DNA of 32,995 nucleotides from Caldifarciminota bacterium (GTDB lineage: Bacteria > Hydrothermota > Tepidihabitantia > SM23-42): contig JAFGPO010000092.1 of NCBI GenBank assembly GCA_016936155.1, forward strand, positions 1-32,995, written 5' to 3'. Within the stretch, counting starts at the first letter, position 1, and the number at the start of each line of letters is the position of its first letter. Positions 4,624-26,913 of the stretch are shown here, one piece after another. The translations under genes were made by a program, and so were the position numbers. A model generated the notes under the pieces. It was not told the DNA's origin. It saw only the letters and a program-made list of their open reading frames with translations, and searched no databases.

Positions 4624-5556
4624 ATGCGCGAAATAGATATTGATAACGGCATCCTTGAACCACAGGATATCCGAACCTCAATTGACCGTGTTCTTCTCGT
4701 AGAAGATCAACAAACATCCATCGACGAATTAAGCGCTTTATTGATCGAAGCTCTCGATACGCGCTTTGAACTTGTGTCTTGCTCGCGACTTGATGCTGCG
4801 CTCGAAAAGCTATACAGTGATCAATATAGTCTTATCATCGCCGACCTCTCCCTTCCTGACGCTCAGGGACCGGAAGTTTACAGCATGCTCAATACACAAG
4901 CCCCACATACCCCAATAATTGTCACTGCCGAAGCACAAGATGAAGCCATGGCAGTGAAGGCGGTTCAGCTGGGAGCCCAAGAATATATCATAAAAAGCAC
5001 GATTGATGTACCTCAATTACAATGTACCATTAAATATGCACTTGAGCAAAAAGCTGTCCAGGAAGAGCTCAGTACATTGGCACTGATCGATAAGGCAACA
5101 GGGCTGTATAATCGACCGTCATTTCTGACACTCACCGACCACTATTTAAAGCTGGCGGATCGTGCGCAAAAAGGACTGATCTTTCTTCACATTCGCTTGC
5201 AGAATTTTTATGATATAGAAAGTGCTTATGGAACACACGGCGCTGAAAAAGCACTGGTAGACTCAGCACGCATCCTGAAACAGACATTCCGGCGTTCTGA
5301 TATCATCTCACGATACACCGACGATGAGTTTGCCGTGGTTGCACTTGAAACAAGAAAAGACTGCGATTCGGCAATACTCAAACGGCTGCAGCAAAATCTG
5401 GAGGTTCATAACCACGCGTGCGCTGAAGATTCGAAGTTGAAATTCTCCATCGGCACCGCATACTATGATTCCCAAGCACCGGTGTCGCTCGCAGAACTGG
5501 TAGCGTTAGCCAGAAGATCTCAATGTCACCGGTACATAAAAGAGTGTTCACAATGA
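4624..5556 (+). CDS. REC-GGDEF protein with degenerate active site and retained I-site
   Basis: This 310-aa protein has a receiver (about 20-140, phospho-acceptor D74 in IIADLSLPD) followed by a GGDEF fold (about 150-308, opening with LIDKATGLYNR). The signature GGDEF is TDDEF (232-236), and the first metal-binding region, normally D-x-D, reads HIR (189-191), so diguanylate cyclase activity is very unlikely. The allosteric RxxD motif is preserved (R223-D226) exactly five residues before the signature, so it could still bind c-di-GMP as a receptor; that is inference from known degenerate GGDEF effectors. The C-terminal helix motif is also eroded compared with the intact paralogue inside the 10422 protein. 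It overlaps the REC-HD-GYP gene by ATGA, suggesting the two work as a pair. Confidence 0.9.
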   Translation: MREIDIDNGILEPQDIRTSIDRVLLVEDQQTSIDELSALLIEALDTRFELVSCSRLDAALEKLYSDQYSLIIADLSLPDAQGPEVYSMLNTQAPHTPIIVTAEAQDEAMAVKAVQLGAQEYIIKSTIDVPQLQCTIKYALEQKAVQEELSTLALIDKATGLYNRPSFLTLTDHYLKLADRAQKGLIFLHIRLQNFYDIESAYGTHGAEKALVDSARILKQTFRRSDIISRYTDDEFAVVALETRKDCDSAILKRLQQNLEVHNHACAEDSKLKFSIGTAYYDSQAPVSLAELVALARRSQCHRYIKECSQ

Positions 5557-6563
5557 AAAAGCTGTCGAACAAGAAAAAAGCGCGCATTTTGATCGTTGAA
5601 GACGAAGCAATAACTGCACGCGATATTGCGGAAACGCTCGTTGCTAACGGCTACGAAGTATGTGGTACCGCAATGACCTCTGATGATGCGATCGAAAAAA
5701 CCGTAGCGCTTGAACCGGATCTTATTTTGATCGACATCGTACTTAGCCATGGAAAGGACGGGATCAAAACGGCAGCGGCAATACATGAAAAAATCGATGT
5801 ACCGATCGTATATCTGACTGCTTACACGAATGACACAATTTTAGAGCGTGCCAAGGAGACTGAACCACACGGCTATCTGATTAAACCCTTTAAAGACCGC
5901 GAGCTCCAAACCACAATCGAAATCGCTCTTTACAAACACGCAAACGAGAGAAAGTTAAAAGAAAGTCTCGACAAATTAGGGAAAGCACTTCTAAACACGG
6001 TCACCGCACTCGCAACTGCAGTTGAAATACGTGATCCATATACTGCCGGACACCAACGCAGGGTTGCACAGCTCGCCCATGCAATTGCCCGGGATTTGAA
6101 CCTCGCAAAAGATAAAATAGAAGCAATTCGCATTGCCGCGACCATTCATGATATTGGAAAACTCAACGTGCCGGCGGAAATCCTGGGCAAACCCGCAAAG
6201 TTAACGGACGCTGAATATGAGATCGTCAGGTCTCATTCACAGATCGGATACGATATACTGAAGAATGTCGAATTTCCGTGGCCAGTAACTCAAATCGTGC
6301 TCCAACACCACGAACGTCTGAATGGTTCTGGATATCCAAAAGGCCTGGATGATGGCAATATTTTACAAGAAGCACAGATTCTCGCGGTGGCAGATGTTAC
6401 AGAAGCGATGCTATCACATCGTCCTTATCGTCCAGCACATAGTTTAAATGCGACACTGGAAGAACTATTAAAAAACAAAAATACATTATATAACTCAGAC
6501 GCAGTTGAGGCATGTATTAAATTGTTTAAAGAAAAAAAGTTCGATTTTGAAACTGAATTTTGA
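5553..6563 (+). CDS. REC-HD-GYP response regulator (predicted c-di-GMP phosphodiesterase)
   Basis: The ATG at 5553 overlaps the previous stop (ATGA) and gives 336 aa; an in-frame ATG at 5523 would add ten residues inside the upstream gene and is less likely. The receiver spans 10-128 (D61 acceptor, T89, K111). The HD-GYP domain spans about 145-330, with metal-site residues in GHQRR (H167), IHDIGK (H199-D200), SHSQIGYDIL, and the defining HHERLNGSGYP (252-262). HD-GYP proteins hydrolyse c-di-GMP, usually to GMP, and receiver-linked forms are switched on by phosphorylation. Placed directly after a degenerate GGDEF protein, it probably forms the degradation arm of the local circuit. About 115 bases with a hairpin separate it from the next gene. 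Confidence 0.94.
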   Translation: MKKLSNKKKARILIVEDEAITARDIAETLVANGYEVCGTAMTSDDAIEKTVALEPDLILIDIVLSHGKDGIKTAAAIHEKIDVPIVYLTAYTNDTILERAKETEPHGYLIKPFKDRELQTTIEIALYKHANERKLKESLDKLGKALLNTVTALATAVEIRDPYTAGHQRRVAQLAHAIARDLNLAKDKIEAIRIAATIHDIGKLNVPAEILGKPAKLTDAEYEIVRSHSQIGYDILKNVEFPWPVTQIVLQHHERLNGSGYPKGLDDGNILQEAQILAVADVTEAMLSHRPYRPAHSLNATLEELLKNKNTLYNSDAVEACIKLFKEKKFDFETEF

Positions 6564-8995: not shown

Positions 8996-9428
8996 GGCCG
9001 TTGAAATTTTATTAATAGAAGACAGTCCAGGCGATGTACGTCTGGCAAAAGAGGCTCTTCGTGATAGCAAAATTTATAATAAATTGCATGTTATTGAGGA
9101 CGGTGTAAAAGCAATCGAATATCTTAGAAAAAAAGGCAGCTATGCAAATGAAACGCGACCCGATCTGATTCTTCTTGATTTGAACCTACCAAGAAAAGAT
9201 GGACGTGAAGTCTTAGCCGAGATCAAAGGAGATGATGATTTAAAAAGAATTCCGGTAGTAATTCTGACAATCTCAACAGATGAAGAAGATATTTTGAAAA
9301 CATATAACTTACATGCGAATTGCTACATTAGCAAACCACTTGAAGTGTTACAATTTATTAAGGTCGTTAAAGCAATTGAGGACTTCTGGTTTACTATCGT
9401 GAAATTACCACCAAATAGTGTTACATGA
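8976..9428 (+). CDS. Rcp1-type single-domain response regulator
   Basis: I choose the ATG at 8976 because it follows a strong AAGGAGGG and yields the usual 150-residue length; the open frame reaches further upstream only inside the kinase gene. The protein is a lone receiver with acidic E15/D16, phospho-acceptor D68 in LILLDLNLP, and a Lys-Pro in beta-5 (ISKPLEV). The extended loop after alpha-2 (KKGSYANETRPD) and the C-terminal extension IEDFWF are typical of the Rcp1 family, partners of phytochrome-like kinases. It overlaps the kinase gene by 20 bases and the next gene by ATGA, so stoichiometric expression with both is likely. With no output domain it may shuttle phosphate to the downstream HD-GYP protein or bind another target. 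Confidence 0.94.
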   Translation: MTAPTGKAVEILLIEDSPGDVRLAKEALRDSKIYNKLHVIEDGVKAIEYLRKKGSYANETRPDLILLDLNLPRKDGREVLAEIKGDDDLKRIPVVILTISTDEEDILKTYNLHANCYISKPLEVLQFIKVVKAIEDFWFTIVKLPPNSVT

Positions 9429-10429
9429 TAGACAATAAATTGAAGATTCTTCTGGTTGAGGACAATCCTGGTGATGCAAGGCTTATAGGTGAAATGCTAA
9501 AGTCGAATGGTAATAACCATTATATCATTAATAGTGTCGATTCACTATACGATGGACTCGAGTCTCTTAAAAAAGAGACCTTTGATCTTGTACTTCTCGA
9601 CCTGGTTTTGCCGGATTGCCGGGGATTTATGACTTTAGAAAAAATATTACCTTACACGCAGGATATTGCGGTAATAGTATTAACTGGACTCGCAGATGAA
9701 AAGATAGCTATACAAGCGATTCATCACGGTGCACAAGATTATTTAATTAAAGGTCAGGTTAATGCTTCCTTACTTACCCGCTCAATGCGTTATGCCGTGG
9801 AGCGTAAGAAAGCAGAAAAAGAGATCAAAACCAGTTACAATAAACTAAAACGTGTCTTTGAAGAGACAGTCGAGGCATTATCCTCGGTATTGGCACAAAG
9901 GGATCCATCGACCCAAAATCATCAACGCCATGTAACTAAACTTGCATACGCAATTGCTGCAAAAATGGAACTTTCACAAGATAAAATCAAGGGTCTGCAA
10001 TTAGCCGGGTTACTGCATGATATAGGAAAAATCAGCATTCCGGCTGAAATATTGATGAAACCGAATCGGTTAACTGATGCTGAATATAGAATTGTAAAAA
10101 CACATTCAAAAATAGCCTATGATATTCTCAAAAAAGTAGAATTCCCCTGGCCTATTGCAGATATCGTCCTTCAACACCATGAACGTTTGGATGGCTCAGG
10201 TTATCCCCAGGGTTTGAAGAACGGTGAAATACTATTAGAAGCAAGGATCATCGCGGTCGCGGATGTTGTAGAAGCAATGTCCTCCCATCGTCCGTATCGT
10301 CCGGCACCCGGGCTTGATAAGGCGCTTGGGGAGATTAAAAAGAACCGCGAACGCCTTTATGATCCAACCGTTGTAGATACATGTATTTGCCTGTTTGCGG
10401 ACAAGAAATTCGATTTCCAGAATGACTGA
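9425..10429 (+). CDS. REC-HD-GYP response regulator (predicted c-di-GMP phosphodiesterase)
   Basis: The start overlaps the previous stop (ATGA). The 334-aa protein has a receiver (5-125; acceptor D59 in LVLLDLVLPDCRG), a connecting helix, and an HD-GYP domain (about 140-330) with NHQRH, LLHDIGKISIPAEIL and the canonical HHERLDGSGYP motif. It is expected to hydrolyse c-di-GMP in the cytosol when its receiver is phosphorylated. Receiver and HD-GYP together look like a close paralogue of the last third of the protein at 10422, sharing phrases such as GAQD.. and the RVFEET helix before the HD domain, which suggests duplication within the island. It overlaps the next gene by eight bases. Confidence 0.94.
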   Translation: MIDNKLKILLVEDNPGDARLIGEMLKSNGNNHYIINSVDSLYDGLESLKKETFDLVLLDLVLPDCRGFMTLEKILPYTQDIAVIVLTGLADEKIAIQAIHHGAQDYLIKGQVNASLLTRSMRYAVERKKAEKEIKTSYNKLKRVFEETVEALSSVLAQRDPSTQNHQRHVTKLAYAIAAKMELSQDKIKGLQLAGLLHDIGKISIPAEILMKPNRLTDAEYRIVKTHSKIAYDILKKVEFPWPIADIVLQHHERLDGSGYPQGLKNGEILLEARIIAVADVVEAMSSHRPYRPAPGLDKALGEIKKNRERLYDPTVVDTCICLFADKKFDFQND

Positions 10430-13400
10430 GCAACCAATCAATTGCAGCCAACCTTCTCAACCGTACAAACCGAGAATTCTCATCGCTGAAGATGAAATTA
10501 TTGTTGCAAAGGACATCGAACTCGCCCTGCAAAAGCGCGGCTATGAAATAGCCGGGACCGTCACCACCGGCAAAAAAGCCATACAATATGCCGAAAAAAC
10601 AAATCCAGATCTGTTGCTTTTTGACATTAAGTTACAAGATGGGATGGATGGGATCGAAGCCGTCCGGCGAATCCTGAAACATCGTGATATCCCGGTTATC
10701 TTTCTGACCGCATATATTACCGATACAATTTCGCAACGAGCTAAAGAAATAAATCCTTACGCATTTATCATTAAACCCTTCAGCGTAGAAGAACTCCACT
10801 CGAATATCGAAATTGCACTTAGTAAACACCACATGCACAAAGTACTGCAGGAAAACGAAAAAAGGTTCGAAATTCTTTTTAAATATGCCCCGGATGCATA
10901 TTACATAAGTGATTTACATGGAACCTTCATTGATGGTAACATTGAAGCTGAGCGTCTTACCGGCTACAAAAAAAAGGAACTTATTGGAAAGAATTTTTTA
11001 AAATTAAAGTTATTACCAAAATCACAACTGTATAAGGCTGCTTCGCTCCTTGCCCAGAATTTACACGGGAAAGCAACTGGTCCTGATGAATTTACTGTAA
11101 TAAAAAAAGATAGTACGAAGGTTCCAGTTGAAATAAGAACCTATCCGATCAAACTCGCCGGGGAAATACATGTTCTCGGTATTGCGCGCGATATCTCCGA
11201 AAGGGAAAAAAATGATCACGAACGCGAGCAATTGCTCAATGCCATGAGAGAACGCATCAAGGAACTCACCTGCCTGTACGGTATTATCAATTCAGCAAGA
11301 ACACGGAAGTCACTCGATGATATCTTTAAGGACACCGCCTTCATAGTACCCAAGGGATTTACGGATCCGGAGAACGCGCGTGTCAGAATCACGTTCGATA
11401 GTACGGTTTTTCAACTCCACCCGTTCAAGGAAACCAACTGGAAAATCCATTACCCGATTGAGATAAATGGTCAGAAACGCGGTGCGATCGAAGTTTATTA
11501 TATAAATAAGCATCCGGATCTCGGTAACCAGCCTTTTTTACGAGAAGAACAGCAACTACTTAAGAACATCACGCGTTTGATCACTGAATTCATCATACGT
11601 AAACAAACGGAAGACACAGTTAACCGGCTTGCATCCATCCCCGAGCATGATCCCAATCCCATAATCGAGACATCAATCGAAGGCAAAGTCACATATATAA
11701 ATCCAGCAGCACAAATTCAATTCCCCGGTATCATTGAACAGGGACAGAACCACCCCCTGCTTGAAGATATCGTTACCGTCGCGGGAAAACTCAAAAAATC
11801 ACAAAATGCAGTAGTTACGAGAGAAATCGAATGTGATCTGAAAGTATTCGAACAAAAGATCAATTTCCTGCCAGGGCATAATCTACTCCGTACATTCACC
11901 TACGAAATCACTGAACAGAAACGGCGGGAAGGGGAACTACGCAACCTGTCACTCCTCGATCAGTTGACTGGTCTCTATAACCGCCGCGGATTTTTAATGC
12001 TTGCGAAACAACAAATTGAATTGGCAGAGCGGTCGAAAAAAGGATTATATTTTTTGTATGCTGATCTGGACCGGATGAAATGGATAAATGACAATTTGGG
12101 ACACCATGATGGTGACCTTGCTCTGAAAACAGTCGCCATGATCTGTAAAAAAACTTTCCGCAAATCGGACATTGTGGGTCGTATTGGTGGAGATGAATTC
12201 GCCATCTGTGCGATCGCAGCACAAAAGGACGGCATTAAACAGCTTACCCTGCGTATAAAAGAAAACCTGTCAAAATACAACAAAAGTCACAAAGAAAATT
12301 TTACTTTGTCACTCAGCATTGGTGCTGCGTATTACGATCCTGACAGTCCTGACACTATCGAAACACTGCTCGAGAGAGCAGACAAACTCATGTATGAGCA
12401 GAAATACAAAAAATATGATCAGCAGCGCCCTGCTGCAATTCCAACTATTCTCTCATACGGTATTGTTGACATTCATAACCGTTTGTCAATTGAAGTCATC
12501 AATGCGCTGATAATCGAAAATGATCCCGATTACCGATCACGGTTTGCCACAATGTTTGAAAATGAACAATCATGGGGAATGAAAATCACGTTTACACATA
12601 CGCTGAACGAAGGTCTAAAGGTAGTCCGTCAGGGAAAAATCGATGTAGTACTCATGGATCTTTTGCTCCCTGATTGTACCGGGATGGAAGCCATGAAACA
12701 GGTACACAGCAGTACGCCAGATGTACCGATTATCCTAATCAGCTCAAATAAAGAAGAAGACATAGCAGTCAAGGCAATCCGCGATGGAGCACAAGATTGC
12801 ATTATGAAAGATGAAACCAGAGGTTCAATCATAATGCGATCCATCAAGTACGCTATGGAACGCAAATATTTTGAACTTGAGTTGAAAAATAGCTTTGGCA
12901 AATTTCTCAGAGTATTCGAAGAAACAATCAATACACTCGCTTCGATCGCAGAAATACGCGATCCCTACACCGCGGGCCACCAGAAAAGAGTCTCGAGCCT
13001 TGCCCAAGCAATTGCCGAAAAAATGGGACTGACCTCTGACCAACAGAAGGCAATAAAACTGGCCGCATTGATCCACGATATCGGTAAAACCAATATACCG
13101 GAAGGTATCCTCAATAAACCCCAAACTCTGTCCGAGGACGAAAAACGGATAATCGAAACCCATCCGGGCGCCGGTTACGAGATCCTGAAAACAATAAAAT
13201 TCCCATGGCTTATCACCCAGATCGTTCACCAGCACCATGAGCGCCTTAACGGTTCAGGTTATCCTAAAGGATTAAAAGGCAATGATATACTCTTCGAATC
13301 GAAGATCCTCGCAGTTGCCGATGTTGTTGAAGCAATGATGTCTGACCGGCCGTACCGTGCCGCCCTTGGGAAAAATGAGGTTTTAACGGAAATCCAAAAA

Positions 13401-13481
13401 AACAAAGGAATCCTCTATGATCCTGCGGTTGTTGACACCTGTATCGCCCTTTTAGAATCTAACTCATGGATACGAAAATAG
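10422..13481 (+). CDS. Composite REC-PAS-GAF-like-PAS-GGDEF-REC-HD-GYP c-di-GMP enzyme
   Basis: The ATG at 10422 overlaps the preceding stop by eight bases and gives 1019 aa; an upstream TTG at 10395 is less likely. In order: receiver (about 15-135, D68), PAS (about 145-270), a GAF-like region (about 285-400), a degenerate PAS (about 405-505), GGDEF (about 510-670) with intact YADLD metal site, GGDEF at 589-593 and I-site RKSD (580-583), a second receiver (about 685-810, D746), and HD-GYP (about 825-1015) with IHDIGK (H885-D886) and HHERLNGSGYP (from 938). Synthesis and hydrolysis domains both look complete, an uncommon pairing in one chain, and two receivers could switch them separately. The parts match neighbouring genes: REC1 resembles 2164 and 5553, GGDEF resembles 4624, and REC2-HD-GYP resembles 9425. 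Confidence 0.93.
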   Translation: MTEQPINCSQPSQPYKPRILIAEDEIIVAKDIELALQKRGYEIAGTVTTGKKAIQYAEKTNPDLLLFDIKLQDGMDGIEAVRRILKHRDIPVIFLTAYITDTISQRAKEINPYAFIIKPFSVEELHSNIEIALSKHHMHKVLQENEKRFEILFKYAPDAYYISDLHGTFIDGNIEAERLTGYKKKELIGKNFLKLKLLPKSQLYKAASLLAQNLHGKATGPDEFTVIKKDSTKVPVEIRTYPIKLAGEIHVLGIARDISEREKNDHEREQLLNAMRERIKELTCLYGIINSARTRKSLDDIFKDTAFIVPKGFTDPENARVRITFDSTVFQLHPFKETNWKIHYPIEINGQKRGAIEVYYINKHPDLGNQPFLREEQQLLKNITRLITEFIIRKQTEDTVNRLASIPEHDPNPIIETSIEGKVTYINPAAQIQFPGIIEQGQNHPLLEDIVTVAGKLKKSQNAVVTREIECDLKVFEQKINFLPGHNLLRTFTYEITEQKRREGELRNLSLLDQLTGLYNRRGFLMLAKQQIELAERSKKGLYFLYADLDRMKWINDNLGHHDGDLALKTVAMICKKTFRKSDIVGRIGGDEFAICAIAAQKDGIKQLTLRIKENLSKYNKSHKENFTLSLSIGAAYYDPDSPDTIETLLERADKLMYEQKYKKYDQQRPAAIPTILSYGIVDIHNRLSIEVINALIIENDPDYRSRFATMFENEQSWGMKITFTHTLNEGLKVVRQGKIDVVLMDLLLPDCTGMEAMKQVHSSTPDVPIILISSNKEEDIAVKAIRDGAQDCIMKDETRGSIIMRSIKYAMERKYFELELKNSFGKFLRVFEETINTLASIAEIRDPYTAGHQKRVSSLAQAIAEKMGLTSDQQKAIKLAALIHDIGKTNIPEGILNKPQTLSEDEKRIIETHPGAGYEILKTIKFPWLITQIVHQHHERLNGSGYPKGLKGNDILFESKILAVADVVEAMMSDRPYRAALGKNEVLTEIQKNKGILYDPAVVDTCIALLESNSWIRK

Positions 13482-13628: not shown

Positions 13629-14660
13629 TCAGTACAATGTCATCCGTTCCTCAAGATATTTGGGTGAGAGTAATCCTTCTAAAACGAGTTTTCTCTTTGC
13701 CTGTTCCATATTCTGCATGCCCATTTGCCGGCTGGTCTGAATTATTGACTCGATTTGGAATATTTTCTTTTCCCGAATGAGATTGCGTACGGCTTGCGTC
13801 GCGATGAGAATTTCATATGCGGCAACGCGCCCCGGCTCGTCACAGCGCGGGTAGAGCCTTTGTGCAATCACCGCCTGCAAAGATTCGGAGAGTTGAACCT
13901 GTATCCGGTCTTGCTCACCGGCCGGGAAAACATCGATGATCCGCGTGATTGTCTTCGGAGCGCTCGATGTATGTAATGTGCCAAAAACAAGATGACCGGT
14001 TTCTGCGGCAGTCAGGGCAAGAGAAATGGTTTCGAGATCCCTTAATTCACCAACAAGCACAAAATCGGGATCCTCGCGAAGGGCGCTTCGGAGAGCATTT
14101 GCGAAGGAATGCGTATTCGTACCCACTTCGCGCTGGTTGACGATACATTGCTGCGTGTGATGAAGGAATTCTACCGGATCTTCGATCGTGATGATATGCC
14201 CTGCCCGGTTTTGATTTATATGGTCGACCATTGACGCGAGCGTGGTCGATTTTCCGCTCCCGGTAGGTCCGGTTACGAGAATAAGCCCTATCTCGAGTTC
14301 CAGTAACTTACTGATCACCGATGGTAACCGTAACTCCTTCATTGTCAAAATATGATGCGGAATGACTCTAAATACAGCGCCCAGACCCTGCCTTTGATTG
14401 AAAACATTAACGCGAAATCTGCCGACATCGGCAATGTCGAGCGAAAAATCGATTTCACGATCTTTTTCAAATAACGTTCGCTGATCCGGGGTCAGTACCT
14501 GATTGACTAGTCTGTTTACGACCTCTTCACTCGCCGGATTATCGTCGATTTTGTTCATTGAACCGTGAATCCGAAGCATGATCGGTGATCCGGTGCTGAT
14601 ATGCAGGTCACTTGCCTTAGAAGCGATCGTATGCTGAAGGAGTTTGATTATTTCAGCCAT
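13629..14660 (-). CDS. pilT: Type IV pilus retraction ATPase PilT
   Basis: The 343-aa product is a near full-length PilT: an N-terminal PAS-like domain, Walker A GPTGSGKSTT (131-140), Asp box TIEDPVEF, atypical Walker B DPDFVLVGELRD (198-209), His box GHLVFGTLHTSSA, and the C-terminal AVRNLIREKK and QMGMQNME segments characteristic of PilT. PilT hexamers sit at the cytoplasmic base of the type IV pilus and drive retraction for twitching and DNA uptake. I choose the ATG at 14660, with an AAAGGA ribosome site eight bases upstream; the longer frame to 14714 has no good start. The start lies inside the MshEN gene (eight-base overlap), so the two are translationally coupled. No other pilus gene is in the window. 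Confidence 0.96.
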   Translation of the reverse strand: MAEIIKLLQHTIASKASDLHISTGSPIMLRIHGSMNKIDDNPASEEVVNRLVNQVLTPDQRTLFEKDREIDFSLDIADVGRFRVNVFNQRQGLGAVFRVIPHHILTMKELRLPSVISKLLELEIGLILVTGPTGSGKSTTLASMVDHINQNRAGHIITIEDPVEFLHHTQQCIVNQREVGTNTHSFANALRSALREDPDFVLVGELRDLETISLALTAAETGHLVFGTLHTSSAPKTITRIIDVFPAGEQDRIQVQLSESLQAVIAQRLYPRCDEPGRVAAYEILIATQAVRNLIREKKIFQIESIIQTSRQMGMQNMEQAKRKLVLEGLLSPKYLEERMTLY

Positions 14661-15261
14661 TGTGCGTGTCCTTTTTTCTGGATTCTTCCTCTGAGGCGTA
14701 TTGTATGGAGACATCAGCGGATCCGGTCGTCCGGAAAATTTGCCCTTTGTCGTTGATCAATTCGATATGAGCGGCATTCGTAATTATGCGCAGCGTGTTG
14801 AATTTATCGATCTTCTGTACGGCGGCGCCGAATCGCTGTGCGAGATAGAACCGGTCCAGCAGATGTTCGATCGTTGCCGGATCTGCCCCGGATACGATGA
14901 TATTTTTGTTTGTGCATGTCTTCAGCACGGCCGTCTTCTCGACGGCCGTAGGGTCGCCCTGCGCGACATAGATTGCCTGGTCAGTCTCGTATAACGGTAG
15001 AATCGCGTTTTCATAGAGCAGTTTTTCCGGAAATCGGCTGACCAAATCAGGATCCAGCATTTCCAGGTTCAATTCAACGAACGGAATGTCCGCCTGTTCA
15101 CTCAATATCCAGATCAGGTCTTTCGATGTCAGATAACCCAGTTCCATGAGGATTTCTCCGAGGCGCTTCTTTTGGGTTTCTTGTATGCCGAGCGCTTCGT
15201 CCAATTGAGTTTCTGCTATGAGCCCGTACTGAATGAGAAGGTCCCCGATGCGCGGCTTCAT
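14653..15261 (-). CDS. Stand-alone MshEN-domain protein, predicted c-di-GMP receptor
   Basis: This 202-aa protein matches only the N-terminal domain of PilB/GspE/MshE-type ATPases. It has two tandem 24-residue c-di-GMP-binding motifs, residues 4-27 (starting RIGDLL, ending in Gln) and 33-56 (starting RLGEIL, ending SEQ), separated by a five-residue linker, the exact architecture described for MshEN. The rest of the N1 domain follows (DIPFVELN, RFPEKLLYENAILPL, AQGDPTAVEKTAVL). No Walker motif is present; after about residue 145 comes an unrecognised tail. In known systems this domain regulates the extension ATPase it is fused to; here it is separate and coupled to the retraction ATPase PilT (eight-base overlap) and to a receiver (ATGA overlap). 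It is a strong candidate adaptor linking c-di-GMP to pilus dynamics; the partner is inference. Confidence 0.88.
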   Translation of the reverse strand: MKPRIGDLLIQYGLIAETQLDEALGIQETQKKRLGEILMELGYLTSKDLIWILSEQADIPFVELNLEMLDPDLVSRFPEKLLYENAILPLYETDQAIYVAQGDPTAVEKTAVLKTCTNKNIIVSGADPATIEHLLDRFYLAQRFGAAVQKIDKFNTLRIITNAAHIELINDKGQIFRTTGSADVSIQYASEEESRKKDTHNG

Positions 15262-15617
15262 TCACCGATCAGTTCAAAAACTTTTGTTTTCAGCGCTTTA
15301 ATGTCGATTGGTTTTGTAAAAAACGCTGCGACGTTGGAGGTTTGGACTACGATATCGTCTTCCATCAGACGAAATGCGGAGCAGATGATAATCGGAATAT
15401 CCTTGTTCCTTTCGCGGATGCGCTCTATCAGATCCAGTCCATGGATGCCCGGCATCTTTATATCCGCGATCAACAGGTCAAAATCCTCTTTTGTAATGAG
15501 ACGAAGCGCCTCGCGCCCATCCGCGGCCTGTTCGACATTATAGTCGCCTTTAAGCGTTTCAGAGATGAGCAACCGTATTGGTTCTTCATCATCACACACT
15601 AAAATTCTTTTTCTCAT
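15258..15617 (-). CDS. Single-domain response regulator (CheY-like)
   Basis: A 119-aa lone receiver with acidic D9/D10, phospho-acceptor D52 in LLIADIKMPG, a Ser after ICSA in beta-4, and Lys-Pro in FFTKPIDIK. It has no output domain, unlike PilR, the usual partner of PilS kinases. ATGA overlaps join it to the kinase upstream and to the MshEN gene downstream, so it is almost certainly the kinase's phosphate acceptor. It may signal through direct binding to the MshEN protein or PilT. Its C terminus closely resembles the receiver remnant at 4457-4621, implying a shared ancestor. Confidence 0.94.
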   Translation of the reverse strand: MRKRILVCDDEEPIRLLISETLKGDYNVEQAADGREALRLITKEDFDLLIADIKMPGIHGLDLIERIRERNKDIPIIICSAFRLMEDDIVVQTSNVAAFFTKPIDIKALKTKVFELIGE

Positions 15618-17206
15618 GATACGTCCTCCTCGTGTGCTTTATAAGGGAGTAGTACGCGAAAGGTCGTTCCGCGTCCTTTCCTGCTCGTGACGTCGATCTT
15701 CCCGCAATGTTCATCGACGATCATTTTTACGATTGATAGTCCTAATCCGGTTCCTCTTTCCTTGGTTGTATAGAATGGTACAAACAGATTTTTCATATTT
15801 TTTGGGTCAATGCCTTCCCCGTTATCCGTAATTTCGATAAAAACGTATGCATCGTCATGCCAGAAATGTATGTCGAGTCGACCATGTTCTTGCGTCGCCT
15901 CGATGCCGTTATTGATAAGATTGACGAATAACCGGCGGATGGATTCAGGTTCACCCATGACCTCGGGCACATCTTTCCCCTGGATACTAACATCAACGCT
16001 GGAAATTTGATTAATTATTGCTTCGAGGAGCATCTGGATGTTGATTGGCTGGCGCGATACGTGGCGTTTTGTCCGTGCGAACGCGAGTATATCTTCGATA
16101 ATGTTGTCAATACGCTGGGATCCTTTATGTATTTCCCGACTGAACCGTTCGATATCCGTGGAATTCTTCGTACTGAGGAGAAGTTGTGCGAATCCATCGA
16201 TCGCGGTAAGCGGATTTCGGATTTCGTGTGCTACCCAACTCGCCATCTTCCCAAGGTAGCTCAGTCGTTCACTGTGCTTGAGTTTCGTTTCAAGTTCCCG
16301 TATTTCCAGTAGATCTTTGAATACCGCCGCGCATCCACTGAAACGGTTTTCCGAACCTGTTATTAATGAAATCGACAATCCAATGGGAATACTCTTCCCT
16401 TCCGCGTTTACAATCGTGACTTCGTCACGTTTTATGGAATTATTTTGTGCCATGCACTCTTTCATCTTTTGCCAGAGCGGCGATAATCGGTCACAATCGT
16501 TCATATTGGCGTTGATTGCCTTTTCTTTAGGAAGGCCGAGCGCGCGGATTGCTTCGGGATTGAGCGTGGTGATAATCCCATCCTCCTGTACGACGATCAC
16601 TCCGCTGCTTACACTGTTGATTATCTTCTCATTATATATACGCAGCTCGATTTCCCTTGCCGCAACCTGAGCCACCTTCTCCTGCAAGGCATTATTAAAC
16701 CGCTCCAGTTCTTTCTTCTTTCGCAGTTCCTGGCGGGTCGTCTGGGACCAGTAACTTGCCATGAGACTGATTATGAAAATAAAGGGGATACGTATGAGGA
16801 TTTTGGAATCGAAAAAAGAAATGCCGGGATGTGATTGATAAATCAGCCATCCGTAGACGATGCTCGCGACAAACGCGATCGGCAGGCTTCCGCCAATATT
16901 CTGACCAACCGACGCCGCAAAAATAACCAGAAAATAGACAAGGTAAAAATCCGTCTCAATACCCTGACTCACGTAGATCGCGGCTGAAATCGCCAATATG
17001 TCGAATATGAACAAACAAAAGGATACCGGGGGCCTGCTCAGGAACGTATCGGGGATGCGATAAATAATCAGATTGGAAATCAGATAGATGAGAGCGATAA
17101 TATATCCCGGGGCAAGCACGTCGATTCCCTTTGCCGTATATGTCATAAATACAATGGTAACGAGGATTAGCACAAAACGCAGGGTGAGGAGGATCTTCTT
17201 ATTCAT
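15614..17206 (-). CDS. PilS-like membrane histidine kinase (about 6 TM + PAS + HisKA)
   Basis: From the ATG at 17206 (MNKKILL) the product is 530 aa. About six hydrophobic helices fill the first 190 residues (for example LLTLRFVLILVTIVF, YIIALIYLISNLIIY, FDILAISAAIYV, FIFIISLMASYW). A coiled segment, a PAS domain (INSVSSGVIVVQEDGIITTLNPEA), HisKA with WVAHEIRNPLTAIDGF (H327) and a HATPase_c domain with NLINNGIEAT, ITDNGEGI and GTGLGLSIVKMIV follow. The layout matches PilS, which controls pilin expression, fitting the downstream pilT. A longer start at 17278 is possible but its Shine-Dalgarno is crowded against the ATG, and the residues it adds weaken the Met-Lys-Lys N terminus. It heads the four-gene operon. 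Confidence 0.92.
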   Translation of the reverse strand: MNKKILLTLRFVLILVTIVFMTYTAKGIDVLAPGYIIALIYLISNLIIYRIPDTFLSRPPVSFCLFIFDILAISAAIYVSQGIETDFYLVYFLVIFAASVGQNIGGSLPIAFVASIVYGWLIYQSHPGISFFDSKILIRIPFIFIISLMASYWSQTTRQELRKKKELERFNNALQEKVAQVAAREIELRIYNEKIINSVSSGVIVVQEDGIITTLNPEAIRALGLPKEKAINANMNDCDRLSPLWQKMKECMAQNNSIKRDEVTIVNAEGKSIPIGLSISLITGSENRFSGCAAVFKDLLEIRELETKLKHSERLSYLGKMASWVAHEIRNPLTAIDGFAQLLLSTKNSTDIERFSREIHKGSQRIDNIIEDILAFARTKRHVSRQPINIQMLLEAIINQISSVDVSIQGKDVPEVMGEPESIRRLFVNLINNGIEATQEHGRLDIHFWHDDAYVFIEITDNGEGIDPKNMKNLFVPFYTTKERGTGLGLSIVKMIVDEHCGKIDVTSRKGRGTTFRVLLPYKAHEEDVS

Positions 17207-17570
17207 GGTTTGAGTAAATACCCTGGATATTGAAGCACACAATAGAATATATAACCTTAGGACAATAGGAAATGACATATCCTACTCAAACGCTAGTAGG
17301 TATTTTTACAGACACAACAATATATTAGGAGAAATAAAGTATGGTTGGTCGCCATAGGTACAACTGTCTTTCCATTCATCCGGTATGCCCATGCGTGCGA
17401 ACGGGATGATATTGGCATACTTTTGGACTGGAAATGCGCACCCGGGTGCGAGCTCAAGGATCCCTTGCCGCCGGTAATCACGATGCGAATTGCAAAATGC
17501 TCTCACCATGCAACTTGAGCGCAGCGCCTGCCCCGCAGGCATTAAATCGTATGGCGAGGGATCATCATGT
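17207..17570. other. Intergenic region upstream of the PilS-like operon
   Basis: About 360 bases without a recognised gene. A hairpin with arms CCTACT (17281-17286) and AGTAGG (17295-17300) lies just ahead of the alternative kinase start and could be an operator or leader structure. A short GC palindrome (GCCTGC/GCAGGC around CCC, near 17527-17541) resembles the larger GC hairpin upstream of scpA. A minus-strand frame at 17306-17650 translates to a segment including KYANIIPFARMGIPDEWK that I do not recognise; it overlaps the ddh pseudogene and lacks a good start. No clear promoter could be assigned. Confidence 0.4.
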
Positions 17571-18030
17571 TTACAGGTATTTGCGCAATAGTTCTTCCCT
17601 GGATAAACGGCTGTAGAATGCAGGAGGGATATCAAGCATTGAATACGCACCGTATGCGTGTTCTGTATGTAAGCGATAACACGCGCGCGTGCGTATCAAA
17701 ACTGTCGACCGTATTGAAAAACTGGGCAAAATATGGTCCCTGGCCCATGAGTTCCGGGGAATCAAGGTCAGACATGCGTTCCATCAACTCCTTGTCCGTC
17801 TCAGTATTAAAAAGGTCCGAGCGTGAACCGCCGCACAAAATTGCCACATCCGCATCCTTGCTGAAATCAGTGATCGACGCGATCGGAACATCGTGCACTT
17901 CTTTCTTCACCCTGCCTGGCTCCCGGCTAATGATCTGGACAGGGTCCATGTCAGGATTCTGTTCGAGTGCGCAATGAACACCATGCCCGATATTTCCATA
18001 ACCAACGATCGTCACCCTGATAGTGCTCAT
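17571..18030 (-). pseudogene. ddh: meso-Diaminopimelate dehydrogenase with internal deletion
   Basis: The first frame (18030 downwards, 132 codons) opens with the Rossmann start of Ddh, TIRVTIVGYGNIGHGV, and continues through AILCGGSRSDL to the diagnostic NTVDSFDTHAR; then it becomes nonsense. In another frame, starting at the same point (about 17681-17693) and ending at 17571, the sequence reads ACYRL...AYGAYSMLDIPPAFYS...REELLRKYL, which fits the extreme C terminus of Ddh. About 180-190 residues of the normal roughly 320 are missing, and the join lies in a CGCGCGCG stretch. The active enzyme reductively aminates tetrahydrodipicolinate to meso-diaminopimelate for lysine and peptidoglycan; this copy lacks most of the substrate and dimer domain and cannot work. 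An apparent 20-odd-residue insertion precedes GPYFAQ. A good AAGGAG ribosome site is still present, so the lesion may be recent. Confidence 0.85.
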
Positions 18031-18102: not shown

Positions 18103-19050
18103 TCATTTCACATAGAGGTAGCTGTTATTCAATTTTTCGGTTTCATTCAAGTGGCGCAGCACATACTGCCCGCAATTGCTGCCGATCAGATTCTCTTCGT
18201 TCTCCCCGATGCTGACGAGCACGTCAAAACCGTTTTGCTGCAGTTCATCGAGCGCGCCGTAACGCTTGTGGGGGTCGTCGGCATCGATGTACGATGTCAG
18301 TTTATTACGCTGCACATTATAGGTGGGATTGAGCGGCGTGATCTTGAACATGAACCGTTCCGGCGCGAAAACATCAATGAGTCTCTTTACATCGAACACA
18401 GATCCCCGGGCAAGGGCGAAATTAAGGGTGATCTTACGATCCCCTTCTTTGAAGTAACAATCTCCATATTCCCGGATGTCCTCGAGCGTGAACTTGGGTA
18501 CCGGCATAAGCTCATCCCGTTCCTTTTCATCTGTGGAATGAATGGAAAACTGCAATTGAAAACGGCCGGCCGTGTATAATCGATCTTTTATTTCAATGAT
18601 CCTCTCGAGGAAACGCTCACATTTTCTGGGCGCGATCGTGGAAACACACCCCATCAGCCCGGGCGCGTGGTATCGCTGAGGGAGAATTTCAAGCACATCA
18701 AGGACTGCTTCATTGTATGCCGGCTCGCCCATACGCGCGAACTGGACCTTGAACTTGTCCGCCGGAACGCGCTGATCAGCATAGCGCCGTGAAACAAGAA
18801 AATCCATTTGAGCAAGGATTTGCTGAGAAGACAGGTGCCCGTGAAAATCCATGCCTGCATCGCACATGCGGCATTTGACCGGGCATCCGCACGACGTTGA
18901 TACAAGCAAGACCCACTTCTGTTCCCGGGTATGCGGCGGCTGAAGGCTCTCCACGCACTCAACGCGCCGGCCATCGCCGAAATCCACGACATAGACGCGG
19001 GCAAGATCATCCCGGCCAAAGGAATTCACTACATTGAAGTCATTAGTCAT
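18103..19050 (-). CDS. RlmN/Cfr-like radical SAM protein
   Basis: The 315-aa protein carries the radical SAM cluster motif C56-x3-C60-x2-C63 (GCPVKCRMC). It follows the RlmN/Cfr order of conserved blocks: FARMGEPAYN (cf. GMGEP), VSTIAP, LQFSIHS, ELMPVPKF, ITPLNPT and SNCGQYV with C293, which aligns with the methyl-carrying cysteine of RlmN. The N-terminal RNA-binding domain of RlmN is absent and I see no Cys seven residues before the cluster, where RlmN has its second catalytic cysteine (C118); a Cys at 54 is nearby. It may therefore be a divergent rRNA/tRNA methyltransferase or a relative with another reaction. The ATG sits in a degenerate ACTAATGAC repeat and has no Shine-Dalgarno, so the true start could be a few codons downstream. 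It lies 63 bases after the mini-ferritin and may share its promoter. Confidence 0.85.
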   Translation of the reverse strand: MTNDFNVVNSFGRDDLARVYVVDFGDGRRVECVESLQPPHTREQKWVLLVSTSCGCPVKCRMCDAGMDFHGHLSSQQILAQMDFLVSRRYADQRVPADKFKVQFARMGEPAYNEAVLDVLEILPQRYHAPGLMGCVSTIAPRKCERFLERIIEIKDRLYTAGRFQLQFSIHSTDEKERDELMPVPKFTLEDIREYGDCYFKEGDRKITLNFALARGSVFDVKRLIDVFAPERFMFKITPLNPTYNVQRNKLTSYIDADDPHKRYGALDELQQNGFDVLVSIGENEENLIGSNCGQYVLRHLNETEKLNNSYLYVK

Positions 19051-19113: not shown

Positions 19114-19395
19114 TTAGTCAATGAGTTCCTCTACTTCCTTCTTCCCCTCTTCCATTTCTTTCACCTGTTCTTTGTCACGACGCAGGAGCAATGTCTGGAA
19201 CTCGCCGACATGTTCTTTTTCTTCTTTGGCGACAGCGAGTAAAACCTTTTTGATATTGTCATCCTGTGTAAGCGCGGCCATCTGTTCGTACAAATTGATC
19301 GCGTCGAGCTCTGCAATGATCCCGGCACGCAGGATCTCGATGTCAAGATTTTCCTTTTTGACTTTTTCAAGGTTTATCGGTATTTGTGACAGCAT
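19114..19395 (-). CDS. Mini-ferritin / rubrerythrin-like two-helix diiron protein
   Basis: The ATG at 19395 follows AGGAGAGG with proper spacing; upstream codons in the frame lie in the promoter. The 93-aa product has two amphipathic helices with iron-ligand candidates E29 and E37 (AELDAINLYEQMA) and an ExxH pair in KEEKEH (E59, H62). Such half-length ferritin-like proteins dimerise to build the four-helix diiron bundle and act in iron storage or peroxide defence; some are encapsulin cargo, but no encapsulin gene is nearby and the acidic C terminus shows no recognisable targeting peptide. It has its own strong promoter and an upstream palindrome, consistent with regulation by metal or oxidative stress (inference). 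Confidence 0.87.
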   Translation of the reverse strand: MLSQIPINLEKVKKENLDIEILRAGIIAELDAINLYEQMAALTQDDNIKKVLLAVAKEEKEHVGEFQTLLLRRDKEQVKEMEEGKKEVEELID

Positions 19396-19422
19396 AATTT
19401 TCCTCTCCTTTCTGGTTTTGCT

Positions 19423-19450
19423 ATTGTATACGCACACGCTGCAAAGTCAA
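19423..19450 (-). promoter_or_regulatory. Sigma70-type promoter of the mini-ferritin
   Basis: On the minus strand TTGACT (19450-19445) and TACAAT (19428-19423) are separated by 16 bases and lie about 28 bases ahead of the ATG. The same boxes recur upstream of the M14 peptidase and the cNMP-binding protein, which supports the assignment. Confidence 0.75.
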
Positions 19451-24947: not shown

Positions 24948-24956
24948 CTACGTAAT
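24934..24956. terminator. Perfect hairpin over the kinase stop codon
   Basis: Ten-base arms ATTACGTAGC and GCTACGTAAT flank a three-base loop; the stop codon of the Ser/Thr kinase (24950-24948) lies within it. It may act as a terminator or mRNA end for one or both convergent genes, although no long T tract follows on either strand. Confidence 0.45.
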
Positions 24957-25973
24957 GATATGTATCAGGTAGTAGATCATTAATGCAAGGACCGCGAGGA
25001 GTATGAGCAGCACCAGAAAATTATGGCGGCGCTTTCCACCTTTGCGTTTCCTCTTTTTTTCGCTTTTTTGTTTCTTGTCCGGCGCGCGCACGATCGTCGT
25101 TGCCCGCTGTTCTTGTTCAATCGACTGCAACAAATTGGCAAGTTCCTCTCCCCCGTGCGCGATCCTCTTGTAGCCAAGGAACCGGGTGAGATCGCGCACG
25201 ATGTGCCCGGCTGATGCATAGCGCTGGTTCAGTCCCTTGCTCATGGCCCGGTGGATGATCGTGGAAAAGCGCAGGCTGTGGTGCGGGCTGTTCCACAACG
25301 GCGAAGGATACTTGCCCCGGATGATCTTCGCCGTGACCGCATGGGCGTTTTCACCGGCAAAGGGTTTCTTACCGGTGATCATTTCGTACATCACGATACC
25401 GATCGAGTAGATATCGGACCGGGCAGTGAGCTCTTTGCCTTCGGCCTGTTCCGGCGACATGTAAAAAGGCGTGCCGATCACCTGGCCGGTCGAGGTCAGG
25501 TGCGGCATGTCTTCACCCCGGGCAACCCCGAAATCCGTGATCTTGACCTCGCCGGTGCGGGAGATCAGGATGTTCGTGGGTTTGACATCACGGTGAATGA
25601 TGCCGCCCTGATGGGCATGCTGCAGCGCGCAGCAGATCTCGCGGGCGATAAATGCAGCGGCCTTCGGCTCGAGCGGTGCCGCATGTTCGATCACGTGCGC
25701 CAGATCAACGCCGTCGATGTACTGCATGACGATATAACAGGAATTACCGATCGTGAAATAATCGTAGATGGGAACGATATTCTTGTGCTCGAGCCCGGCA
25801 CAGATCACTGCTTCCTGCTTGAACCGCCGGCGCGATTCGTTCTTGCCCATTTCTTTGACGACGACGATGCGGTCAAGCGAGGAGTGAATGGCCGTGTAGA
25901 TCTTTGCCATACCTCCTTTGCCGATGACATCGAGGATGCGGTAATTGCCGATATACCTATATTCTTGTTTCAT
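24948..25973 (-). CDS. Membrane-anchored Ser/Thr protein kinase (PknB-like)
   Basis: I place the start at the ATG at 25973 (MKQEYRYIGNYRIL), giving 341 aa; upstream codons lie inside the FHA-GGDEF gene. The Hanks-type kinase has a glycine loop GKGGMAK, catalytic Lys in VVVK (K40), HRDVKPTN (127-134), DFG (147-149) and GTPFYMSPEQ in the activation segment. A very basic linker (KKRKRKGGKRRH) leads to a C-terminal transmembrane helix (about 318-338) ending almost at once, so there is no external sensor domain. The gene overlaps the 3' end of the FHA-GGDEF gene by 17 bases; FHA domains bind phospho-Thr, so that protein is its obvious partner and substrate. Confidence 0.94.
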   Translation of the reverse strand: MKQEYRYIGNYRILDVIGKGGMAKIYTAIHSSLDRIVVVKEMGKNESRRRFKQEAVICAGLEHKNIVPIYDYFTIGNSCYIVMQYIDGVDLAHVIEHAAPLEPKAAAFIAREICCALQHAHQGGIIHRDVKPTNILISRTGEVKITDFGVARGEDMPHLTSTGQVIGTPFYMSPEQAEGKELTARSDIYSIGIVMYEMITGKKPFAGENAHAVTAKIIRGKYPSPLWNSPHHSLRFSTIIHRAMSKGLNQRYASAGHIVRDLTRFLGYKRIAHGGEELANLLQSIEQEQRATTIVRAPDKKQKSEKKRKRKGGKRRHNFLVLLILLAVLALMIYYLIHIIT

Positions 25974-26913
25974 CGTACACCACCACCCGGTCGCGGCCCG
26001 CGCGCTTCGCCGCATAGACGGCCTGATCAGCATGCTCCAGCACGTGCTTGAGATCGGCCCCGTGTTCCGGAAATGCCGCGACCCCGACGCTCACGGTTAT
26101 TTTGAATGAAAGGATACGGGGTGTCTGCATCGCGATGATACCGTTGATATCCTTGCCCACGATCTCAGCATCCCTGGAAGTGCTCGCCGGCAGGATCACC
26201 ACGATCTCTTCCCCGCCATACCGCGCGACCACGTCGCTCTTGCGGCAGGAAAGACGGATCAGCTGCGCGACCGTGCGCAGGGCGTCATCGCCGATTTTGT
26301 GCCCGTGCGTATCATTGACGTTCTTGAAATGATCGATATCGATGAAGAGAAGGGCTATCGGACGCTTCGAACTTTTCGCGTTCTCGAACTCCTTGCGCGC
26401 ATGCTCGTCAAAATACTGGCGGTTGAAAAGGCCGGTCAATTTATCCTCGTGCGCGAGCGATGAAAGCTGCTTCCGGCTCTTTTTGACGACCTGCTCGATC
26501 TGCTTGAATTCTTCGGCAAGATCCTTGTCCTTGACCTTATCGCGCAAGGACAGAAATTTATTCTCAATGATCTCGGTGACGCCGCCTTTTCTCCCCACCT
26601 CGGTCGCCTCGGGAAATGCTACGATCCCGGTCCCGTCATCGAGCACGAGCAGAAGGTCACCGATCGTTATCTCGTCGCCGGCATGAAGGGTGTGCTTTTT
26701 TATCGGCTGCCCGTTGACCAGTGTGCCGTTCGTGCTGTCAAGATCCTGGATAATACAGGTTGTGCCGTCAAAATCAATGGCGGCATGGTGGCGCGATACC
26801 TCCTTGCTGCTGATCATTATATCCGCATCGTCGCTCCGCCCGATAACAAACCTGCCCGCTTCGATCGTGAGCTTTTTAACGATAACGCCGCTGTCGATCA
26901 GGAGCAACTGCAT
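25957..26913 (-). CDS. FHA-GGDEF diguanylate cyclase
   Basis: The 318-aa product has an FHA domain (about 1-92) with the phospho-Thr-binding residues in GRS (25-27), SRHHA (40-44) and STNGT (60-64), a coiled linker, and a GGDEF domain (about 150-318). The metal site IDIDHFK and I-site RKSD (224-227) are intact, and the signature reads GGEEI (233-237), with Ile in place of the usual Phe. It is probably an active cyclase making c-di-GMP from two GTP, controlled through phospho-peptide binding. The overlapping Ser/Thr kinase gene downstream supports phosphorylation-dependent control. The start ATG has only a weak ribosome site. Confidence 0.93.
   Translation of the reverse strand: MQLLLIDSGVIVKKLTIEAGRFVIGRSDDADIMISSKEVSRHHAAIDFDGTTCIIQDLDSTNGTLVNGQPIKKHTLHAGDEITIGDLLLVLDDGTGIVAFPEATEVGRKGGVTEIIENKFLSLRDKVKDKDLAEEFKQIEQVVKKSRKQLSSLAHEDKLTGLFNRQYFDEHARKEFENAKSSKRPIALLFIDIDHFKNVNDTHGHKIGDDALRTVAQLIRLSCRKSDVVARYGGEEIVVILPASTSRDAEIVGKDINGIIAMQTPRILSFKITVSVGVAAFPEHGADLKHVLEHADQAVYAAKRAGRDRVVVYDETRI

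Follow-up and report, generated by a model that had tools for sequence, protein, structure and literature searches.

We analyzed a 32,995-nucleotide stretch of DNA from a Caldifarciminota bacterium (contig JAFGPO010000092.1; the whole stretch is here called the window) that holds a four-gene operon encoding a membrane-bound histidine kinase, a lone receiver, a stand-alone MshEN protein, and a PilT-family ATPase. Control of type IV pili by cyclic di-GMP (c-di-GMP) is known to act on extension, through MshE, PilB, and FimX-PilZ. For this operon, we propose, with confidence evenly balanced, that the MshEN protein serves the retraction motor formed by the operon PilT as a dedicated c-di-GMP-sensing subunit acting in trans. 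Sequence data give the set of parts and their arrangement, how far they are conserved and occur together, the presence of the binding motifs, and the linkage to c-di-GMP genes; c-di-GMP binding, contact with PilT, the direction of the effect, and the role of the receiver are what we infer.

A stand-alone MshEN protein beside PilT

The operon reads 5' to 3' on the minus strand in the order kinase, receiver, MshEN protein, PilT, with the four genes overlapping end to end:

17206..15614, minus strand: membrane-bound PAS histidine kinase, 530 amino acids (PAS, HisKA, HATPase_c; hydrophobic N-terminal segments)
15617..15258, minus strand: single-domain response regulator, 119 amino acids (Pfam PF00072, 2e-25)
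15261..14653, minus strand: stand-alone MshEN protein, 202 amino acids (Pfam PF05157; NCBIfam NF053729 above cut-off)
14660..13629, minus strand: PilT-family retraction ATPase, 343 amino acids (TIGR01420 above cut-off)

The kinase and receiver genes overlap by ATGA, as do the receiver and MshEN genes, and the MshEN and PilT genes share 8 nucleotides. These junctions bear out the claim, made in an earlier sequence-only reading of the window, that a freed MshEN is joined by genetic overlap to PilT and to a kinase-receiver pair. The kinase start at Met 17206 is backed by relatives, which align from the same Met. The open reading frame list begins PilT further upstream, giving 361 amino acids, but relatives lend no support to that start, and the 343-amino-acid form was taken. 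A scan of the window for promoters and terminators gave signals barely above those of shuffled sequences.

The MshEN protein carries two 24-residue motifs, at residues 4 to 27 (RIG..L..GLI....L...L..Q) and 33 to 56 (RLG..L..GYL....L...L..Q), separated by a five-residue linker (residues 28 to 32). They follow the consensus used here, two RLGxx(LVI)2xxG(LVI)2xxxxLxxxLxxQ motifs with a 5-residue linker, with departures at Ile5, Met39, and Tyr43. The protein matches Pfam MshEN (PF05157, E value 7.9e-14) and, at 60.4 bits, clears the cut-off of 38 for the NCBIfam c-di-GMP_motif model NF053729. A T2SSE (ATPase) match sought in the 202-residue chain was not found, which places it outside PilB/GspE. 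Thus, the two motifs, the linker, and the missing ATPase domain, all claimed from the sequence alone, were confirmed by Pfam, NCBIfam, and the sequence itself.

An AlphaFold2 model of the protein (mean predicted local distance difference test score, 84.5) has the MshEN_N helix bundle (residues 1 to 56) and the MshEN_C fold (residues 57 to 145), followed by a C-terminal beta-hairpin tail (residues ~150 to 190) of lower confidence. In Foldseek, the best Protein Data Bank (PDB) match was MshE with c-di-GMP (5htl; E value 5e-11, TMt 0.78) and the next were PilB-PilZ and PilF GSPIIB structures; the MshE and PilF domains matched were solved with c-di-GMP. The protein therefore resembles the N-terminal domain of Vibrio cholerae MshE (5htl), in which two 24-residue motifs with a 5-residue linker have been described (PMC5013675), in motifs, linker, and fold. 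However, MshE has MshEN in cis on an extension ATPase, whereas the window protein is encoded separately, next to PilT, and has a beta-hairpin tail in addition. Judged by motifs and fold, the MshEN protein is a putative c-di-GMP receptor.

All 13 members of the MshEN alignment match NF053729 and retain the four motif Gly residues, both Gln residues, and nearly all of the stacking Leu positions, with Arg or Lys at the second motif Arg position. These data bear on an alternative in which c-di-GMP use was lost or never present and MshEN provides protein-protein contacts with the receiver and PilT, with phosphorylation as the sole signal. Such a scaffold would fit the replacement of a motif Arg in some members, the existence of nonbinding MshEN domains such as XpsE (PMC5013675), and the binding of the Xanthomonas lone receiver EmvR to PilB (PMC11973254). 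However, the retained Gln, Gly, and Leu residues set these proteins apart from XpsE, every member matches the c-di-GMP motif model, and c-di-GMP enzymes are linked to the operon (see below). We consider the scaffold improbable.

The operon PilT is a predicted retraction motor. It scores 466 bits against the TIGR01420 cut-off of 319 and has intact Walker A, Walker B, His box, and AVRNLIRE motifs, as expected of a PilT/PilU retraction ATPase, and its best PDB match is a twitching motility protein (3jvu, E value 1e-111). The genome encodes five PilT/PilU paralogues, this one included; together with its orthologues, the operon copy forms a clade of its own (support, 100/100), separate from the other four.

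Among named genomes, the loci nearest to that of the window come from candidate division WOR-3/Stahlbacteria. Across 147 genomes of this phylum, the ~200-amino-acid MshEN class was present in 14, belonging to two families of one order, and missing from the other 133. PilT lay directly downstream of MshEN in all 14 loci, always as a second reading frame, and no MshEN-PilT fusion was seen. When 27 genomes were searched with PilT, an orthologue (64 to 74% identity) was found in exactly the same genomes as this MshEN, and the other PilTs were at ~52% identity or less; G017, outside that search set, has a PilT at 71%. In 12 of the 14 genomes, the gene just upstream of MshEN is the receiver, even with the kinase elsewhere, and all four genes are contiguous in 9, so the four-gene order does recur in related genomes. 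In G025, the kinase and receiver are divergent, and in G014, they are on another contig. Because it recurs in 14 genomes, the arrangement is far beyond chance.

This conservation also speaks to decay, in which the gene would be a PilB gene minus its ATPase that adjoins PilT by accident. One of the 14 copies (G016) has an in-frame stop codon, and the Cys4 stretch of the Nitrospirota partner protein described below aligns weakly with the PilB zinc module (hhalign probability, 8.7%). However, the gene is conserved across two families and always beside PilT, the pairwise ratio of nonsynonymous to synonymous substitution rates is ~0.1 to 0.3 for the whole MshEN gene (two methods, computable pairs; 0.03 to 0.1 for PilT), and the closest relatives are other stand-alone or PilT-paired MshENs and not PilB. 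Decay is thus highly improbable, and the decayed, nonconserved gene that the sequence-only reading had named as its refutation is excluded.

The tail is found in every PilT-linked MshEN copy and is missing in eight relatives of 146 to 162 amino acids, found elsewhere in the family, that are not beside PilT and that, in the MshEN tree, descend from within the PilT-linked group. Tail-less paralogues of this size occur at L047 to L052, with three within 20 kb of G003, and those checked adjoin secreted or metabolic genes. The tail was also considered as a remnant of PilB N2D, for which profile comparison gave no support. No relatives were found in viral contigs, and plasmids yielded only weak MshEN matches, mostly ATPases and one glycosyltransferase.

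The two-component pair and the c-di-GMP enzymes

A Pfam search for an output domain in the 119-amino-acid receiver found none, marking it as a single-domain response regulator, and the claim that it lacks the DNA-binding part of PilR held. Its acidic pocket, phospho-acceptor Asp, Ser/Thr, and Lys are kept in all of the relatives aligned; judged by these residues, an ability to accept phosphate is supported. It is 67 to 79% identical to MshEN-linked relatives. The kinase has several hydrophobic segments and PAS, HisKA, and HATPase_c domains, with orthologues at 50 to 64% identity. Its description as PilS-like stands for this membrane sensor architecture. However, no PilS-specific model matched, the best curated matches (AtoS, PnpS, and ZraS) were all below cut-off, and the partner at the locus is the lone receiver rather than an NtrC-type PilR.

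Genes for c-di-GMP enzymes lie on the opposite strand of the window:

10395..13481, plus strand: REC-PAS-GGDEF-REC-HD-GYP protein, 1028 amino acids; GGDEF and HDIGK...GSGYP intact; convergent neighbor of the operon
9425..10429, plus strand: REC-HD-GYP phosphodiesterase; HD-GYP domain 74% identical to the G015 gene directly upstream of receiver-MshEN-PilT
5523..6563, plus strand: REC-HD-GYP phosphodiesterase; 59% identical to a gene within the G015 row
4624..5556, plus strand: REC-GGDEF protein with the degenerate signature TDDEF; 45% identical to a gene within the G015 row

The last protein, with TDDEF replacing GGDEF, is likely inactive, and its relatives in linked loci are likewise weak scoring. 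The G015 genes, all on the same strand, run kinase, receiver, REC-GGDEF, REC-HD-GYP, HD-GYP, receiver, MshEN, PilT. The order on one strand in G017 is REC-PAS-GGDEF-REC-HD-GYP, receiver, MshEN, PilT, and the first of these genes is 49% identical to window positions 10395-13481 over nearly the whole length. G008, G009, and G010 have GAF-HD-GYP genes immediately before the kinase, and HD-GYP genes adjoin PilT in G014 and G016. Altogether, a c-di-GMP gene is beside or within 8 of the 14 loci, the window included; the four second-family loci all lack such a neighbor. The window's 2.5-Mb genome has 9 HD-GYP and 14 GGDEF matches in ~22 genes (roughly 1% of genes); by rough arithmetic, and with the genomes being related, ~0.3 such neighbors would be expected by chance for 14 two-flank loci. 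Because G015, G017, and further loci repeat it, the link between the c-di-GMP enzymes and the operon is no accident, and the neighboring island of such enzymes pointed out earlier is tied to the operon through the loci of relatives. An Rfam scan of the window gave zero matches at the gathering score and hence no known c-di-GMP riboswitch.

Five genomes (G002, G004, G011, G012, and G013) carry orthologues of the kinase, the receiver, or both without MshEN-PilT, and therefore the signaling pair is not dedicated to the MshEN-PilT output. In most of these copies, the same kinds of GGDEF and HD-GYP genes adjoin. This is what would be seen if the receiver targeted the c-di-GMP enzymes or something else and shared the operon with MshEN-PilT for coexpression only, a reading compatible with our proposal for MshEN and PilT. 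The place of the receiver gene immediately before MshEN, kept in 12 of the 14 loci and in some of them with the kinase elsewhere, argues the other way, and we regard two separate modules as possible but rather doubtful.

Several other genes in the window were noted. A GGDEF protein with an FHA-like N terminus (24948-26913, minus strand) is beside a Ser/Thr-kinase-like gene (FHA and kinase read from sequence) and is a possible further c-di-GMP input. Just upstream of the operon, a diaminopimelate dehydrogenase-like open reading frame (17306-18030, minus strand) looks broken, its match ending a third of the way into the family model (132 amino acids). Beyond it are a radical SAM protein with distant likeness to RlmN/Cfr, far under the family cut-offs (18103-19050, minus strand), and a small ferritin-like protein that resembles the encapsulin cargo EncB, under the EncB cut-off (19114-19437, minus strand).

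Counterparts in other phyla and known systems

We searched 246 genomes of the Nitrospirota, the phylum of locus L106, and examined nine loci (L162 to L170). The search gave proteins of 351 to 377 amino acids that match the MshEN alignment well, with E values reaching 1e-40, and more strongly than the PilBs of WOR-3 itself. At the nine loci, the proteins have 351 to 363 amino acids. PilT is directly downstream in all nine, often with overlapping reading frames, and these PilTs are 53 to 57% identical to the window PilT. Unlike in the WOR-3 operon, there is no receiver directly upstream, and the MshEN domain of these ~355-amino-acid proteins is followed by ~210 residues without a Pfam domain; no ATPase domain was found by Pfam in the two tested. 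A C-terminal Cys4 stretch is present in all but L164. The C-terminal part was also considered as a dead PilB ATPase, which it may be, but only the Cys4 stretch aligns with the PilB zinc module, at the low probability given above.

The Nitrospirota and WOR-3 MshENs fall together in one clade (support, 99/92) of a 118-domain MshEN tree. The Omnitrophota stand-alone MshENs and nearly all PilB domains lie outside this clade, and one long-branch ATPase row is inside it. In the PilT tree, the paired PilTs of each phylum form a clade inside a larger group that includes unpaired PilTs. The pairing may be either old and shared, passed between phyla, or arisen twice, and the trees do not choose among these.

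A freed MshEN is not unique to the window locus. Many stand-alone MshENs of ~146 to 204 amino acids were present in 285 Omnitrophota genomes. Those examined (L144 to L161; 146 to 183 amino acids) resemble the window protein in lying beside pilus ATPases but sit in main pilus operons next to PilB. Some precede a PilB without MshEN, and several loci have MshEN between PilT and PilB. At L144, L145, and L150, an MshEN of 149 to 151 amino acids directly precedes a 410- to 417-amino-acid ATPase without MshEN, a split extension motor; two MshEN-less ATPases tested gave full-length T2SSE matches. Because the Omnitrophota proteins, beside PilB, form a separate clade, MshEN detachment probably happened at least twice.

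These loci bring in the main rival to our proposal, a competitor at the shared pilus base. Here, the target of the freed MshEN would be the base or PilB; it might, for example, take up the contact site of PilB's MshEN so that PilT gains access, and MshEN-PilT adjacency would mean coordinated expression with no direct complex. In its favor, PilB contains an MshEN of its own and contends with PilT for a single socket (PMC11656802), the window genome retains two MshEN-PilB proteins, and the Omnitrophota proteins adjoin PilB, several of them with PilT on the other side. However, the mapped WOR-3 operon loci include PilT but lack pilB, the Nitrospirota MshEN is paired with PilT alone, and the tail tracks with PilT linkage. 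We therefore consider the competitor unlikely and retain the proposal of a PilT subunit.

In domain order (MshEN, then N2D and ATPase), the MshEN-PilT pair resembles a split PilB, PilF, or GspE, but the ATPase is of the PilT family (TIGR01420) and in a separate reading frame. MshEN domains have been described on proteins other than ATPases, in combination with receivers, glycosyltransferases, and other partners (PMC5013675); examples are PA3740 and the REC-MshEN protein Bd2402, the latter joined to a two-component protein (PMC5013675). In a literature search with few subscription journals covered, we found no report of either protein with PilT or of any MshEN protein paired with PilT. PilG/PilH and EmvR (PMC12632253, PMC11973254) are lone receivers that control type IV pilus motors after translation, as proposed here, but they are reported to act on PilB and have no MshEN partner. 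EmvR fails as a precedent for a PilT-binding lone receiver; it binds PilB and did not bind PilT (PMC11973254). The FimX-PilZ-PilB system also exerts c-di-GMP control of a pilus motor via separate proteins, but these have EAL/GGDEF and PilZ domains and the target is extension.

Proposed mechanism and its meaning

In the proposed mechanism, MshEN would work in trans on PilT, in the place that it holds in cis on the extension motor PilB. The membrane kinase would phosphorylate the lone receiver, and the neighboring GGDEF and HD-GYP enzymes, several with receiver domains of their own, would set c-di-GMP. Binding of c-di-GMP to the two MshEN motifs would then lead the MshEN protein to alter PilT's engagement of the pilus base or its ATP hydrolysis, with the beta-hairpin tail as the likely coupling element and receiver phosphorylation as a possible second input.

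Several observations weigh against this mechanism. The first motif Arg of MshE stacks on guanine (PMC5013675), and the equivalent Arg4 is Leu or Lys in 4 of the 13 aligned members. The tail is the least conserved part of the protein in the same alignment. Given the four other PilT paralogues in the genome, the operon PilT may be accessory, and the adjacency of MshEN and PilT can reflect coregulation alone. Additionally, the G016 MshEN gene (L043:9484-10078), whose frame is well preserved in other respects, is interrupted by an in-frame TAG near residue 26, which may reflect a pseudogene, an assembly error, or recoding. Given these caveats, the suggestion that the locus is a switch stands in part: the conserved stand-alone MshEN, the coinherited PilT, the predicted phospho-competent receiver, and the c-di-GMP link favor it, but the kinase and receiver are not dedicated to this output.

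Taken together, these results make it plausible that the MshEN protein, a member of a known receptor family, is a regulatory subunit dedicated to the retraction motor. MshEN is detachable from its ATPase and appears to have been reused as a separate protein more than once, and a sensor beside the retraction motor suggests direct signal control of retraction itself. Floyd et al. (2020; PMC7096442) left as a question an effect of c-di-GMP on PilT-mediated retraction that is independent of MshE. The conserved MshEN-PilT pair in two phyla makes this question directly testable with two small soluble proteins. Somewhat more tentatively than for the single operon, we suggest that there may be a PilT-dedicated c-di-GMP receptor family in at least two phyla (WOR-3 and Nitrospirota) through which retraction would be controlled independently of the extension motor and which, in WOR-3, would be coupled with two-component signaling and with c-di-GMP enzymes of its own.

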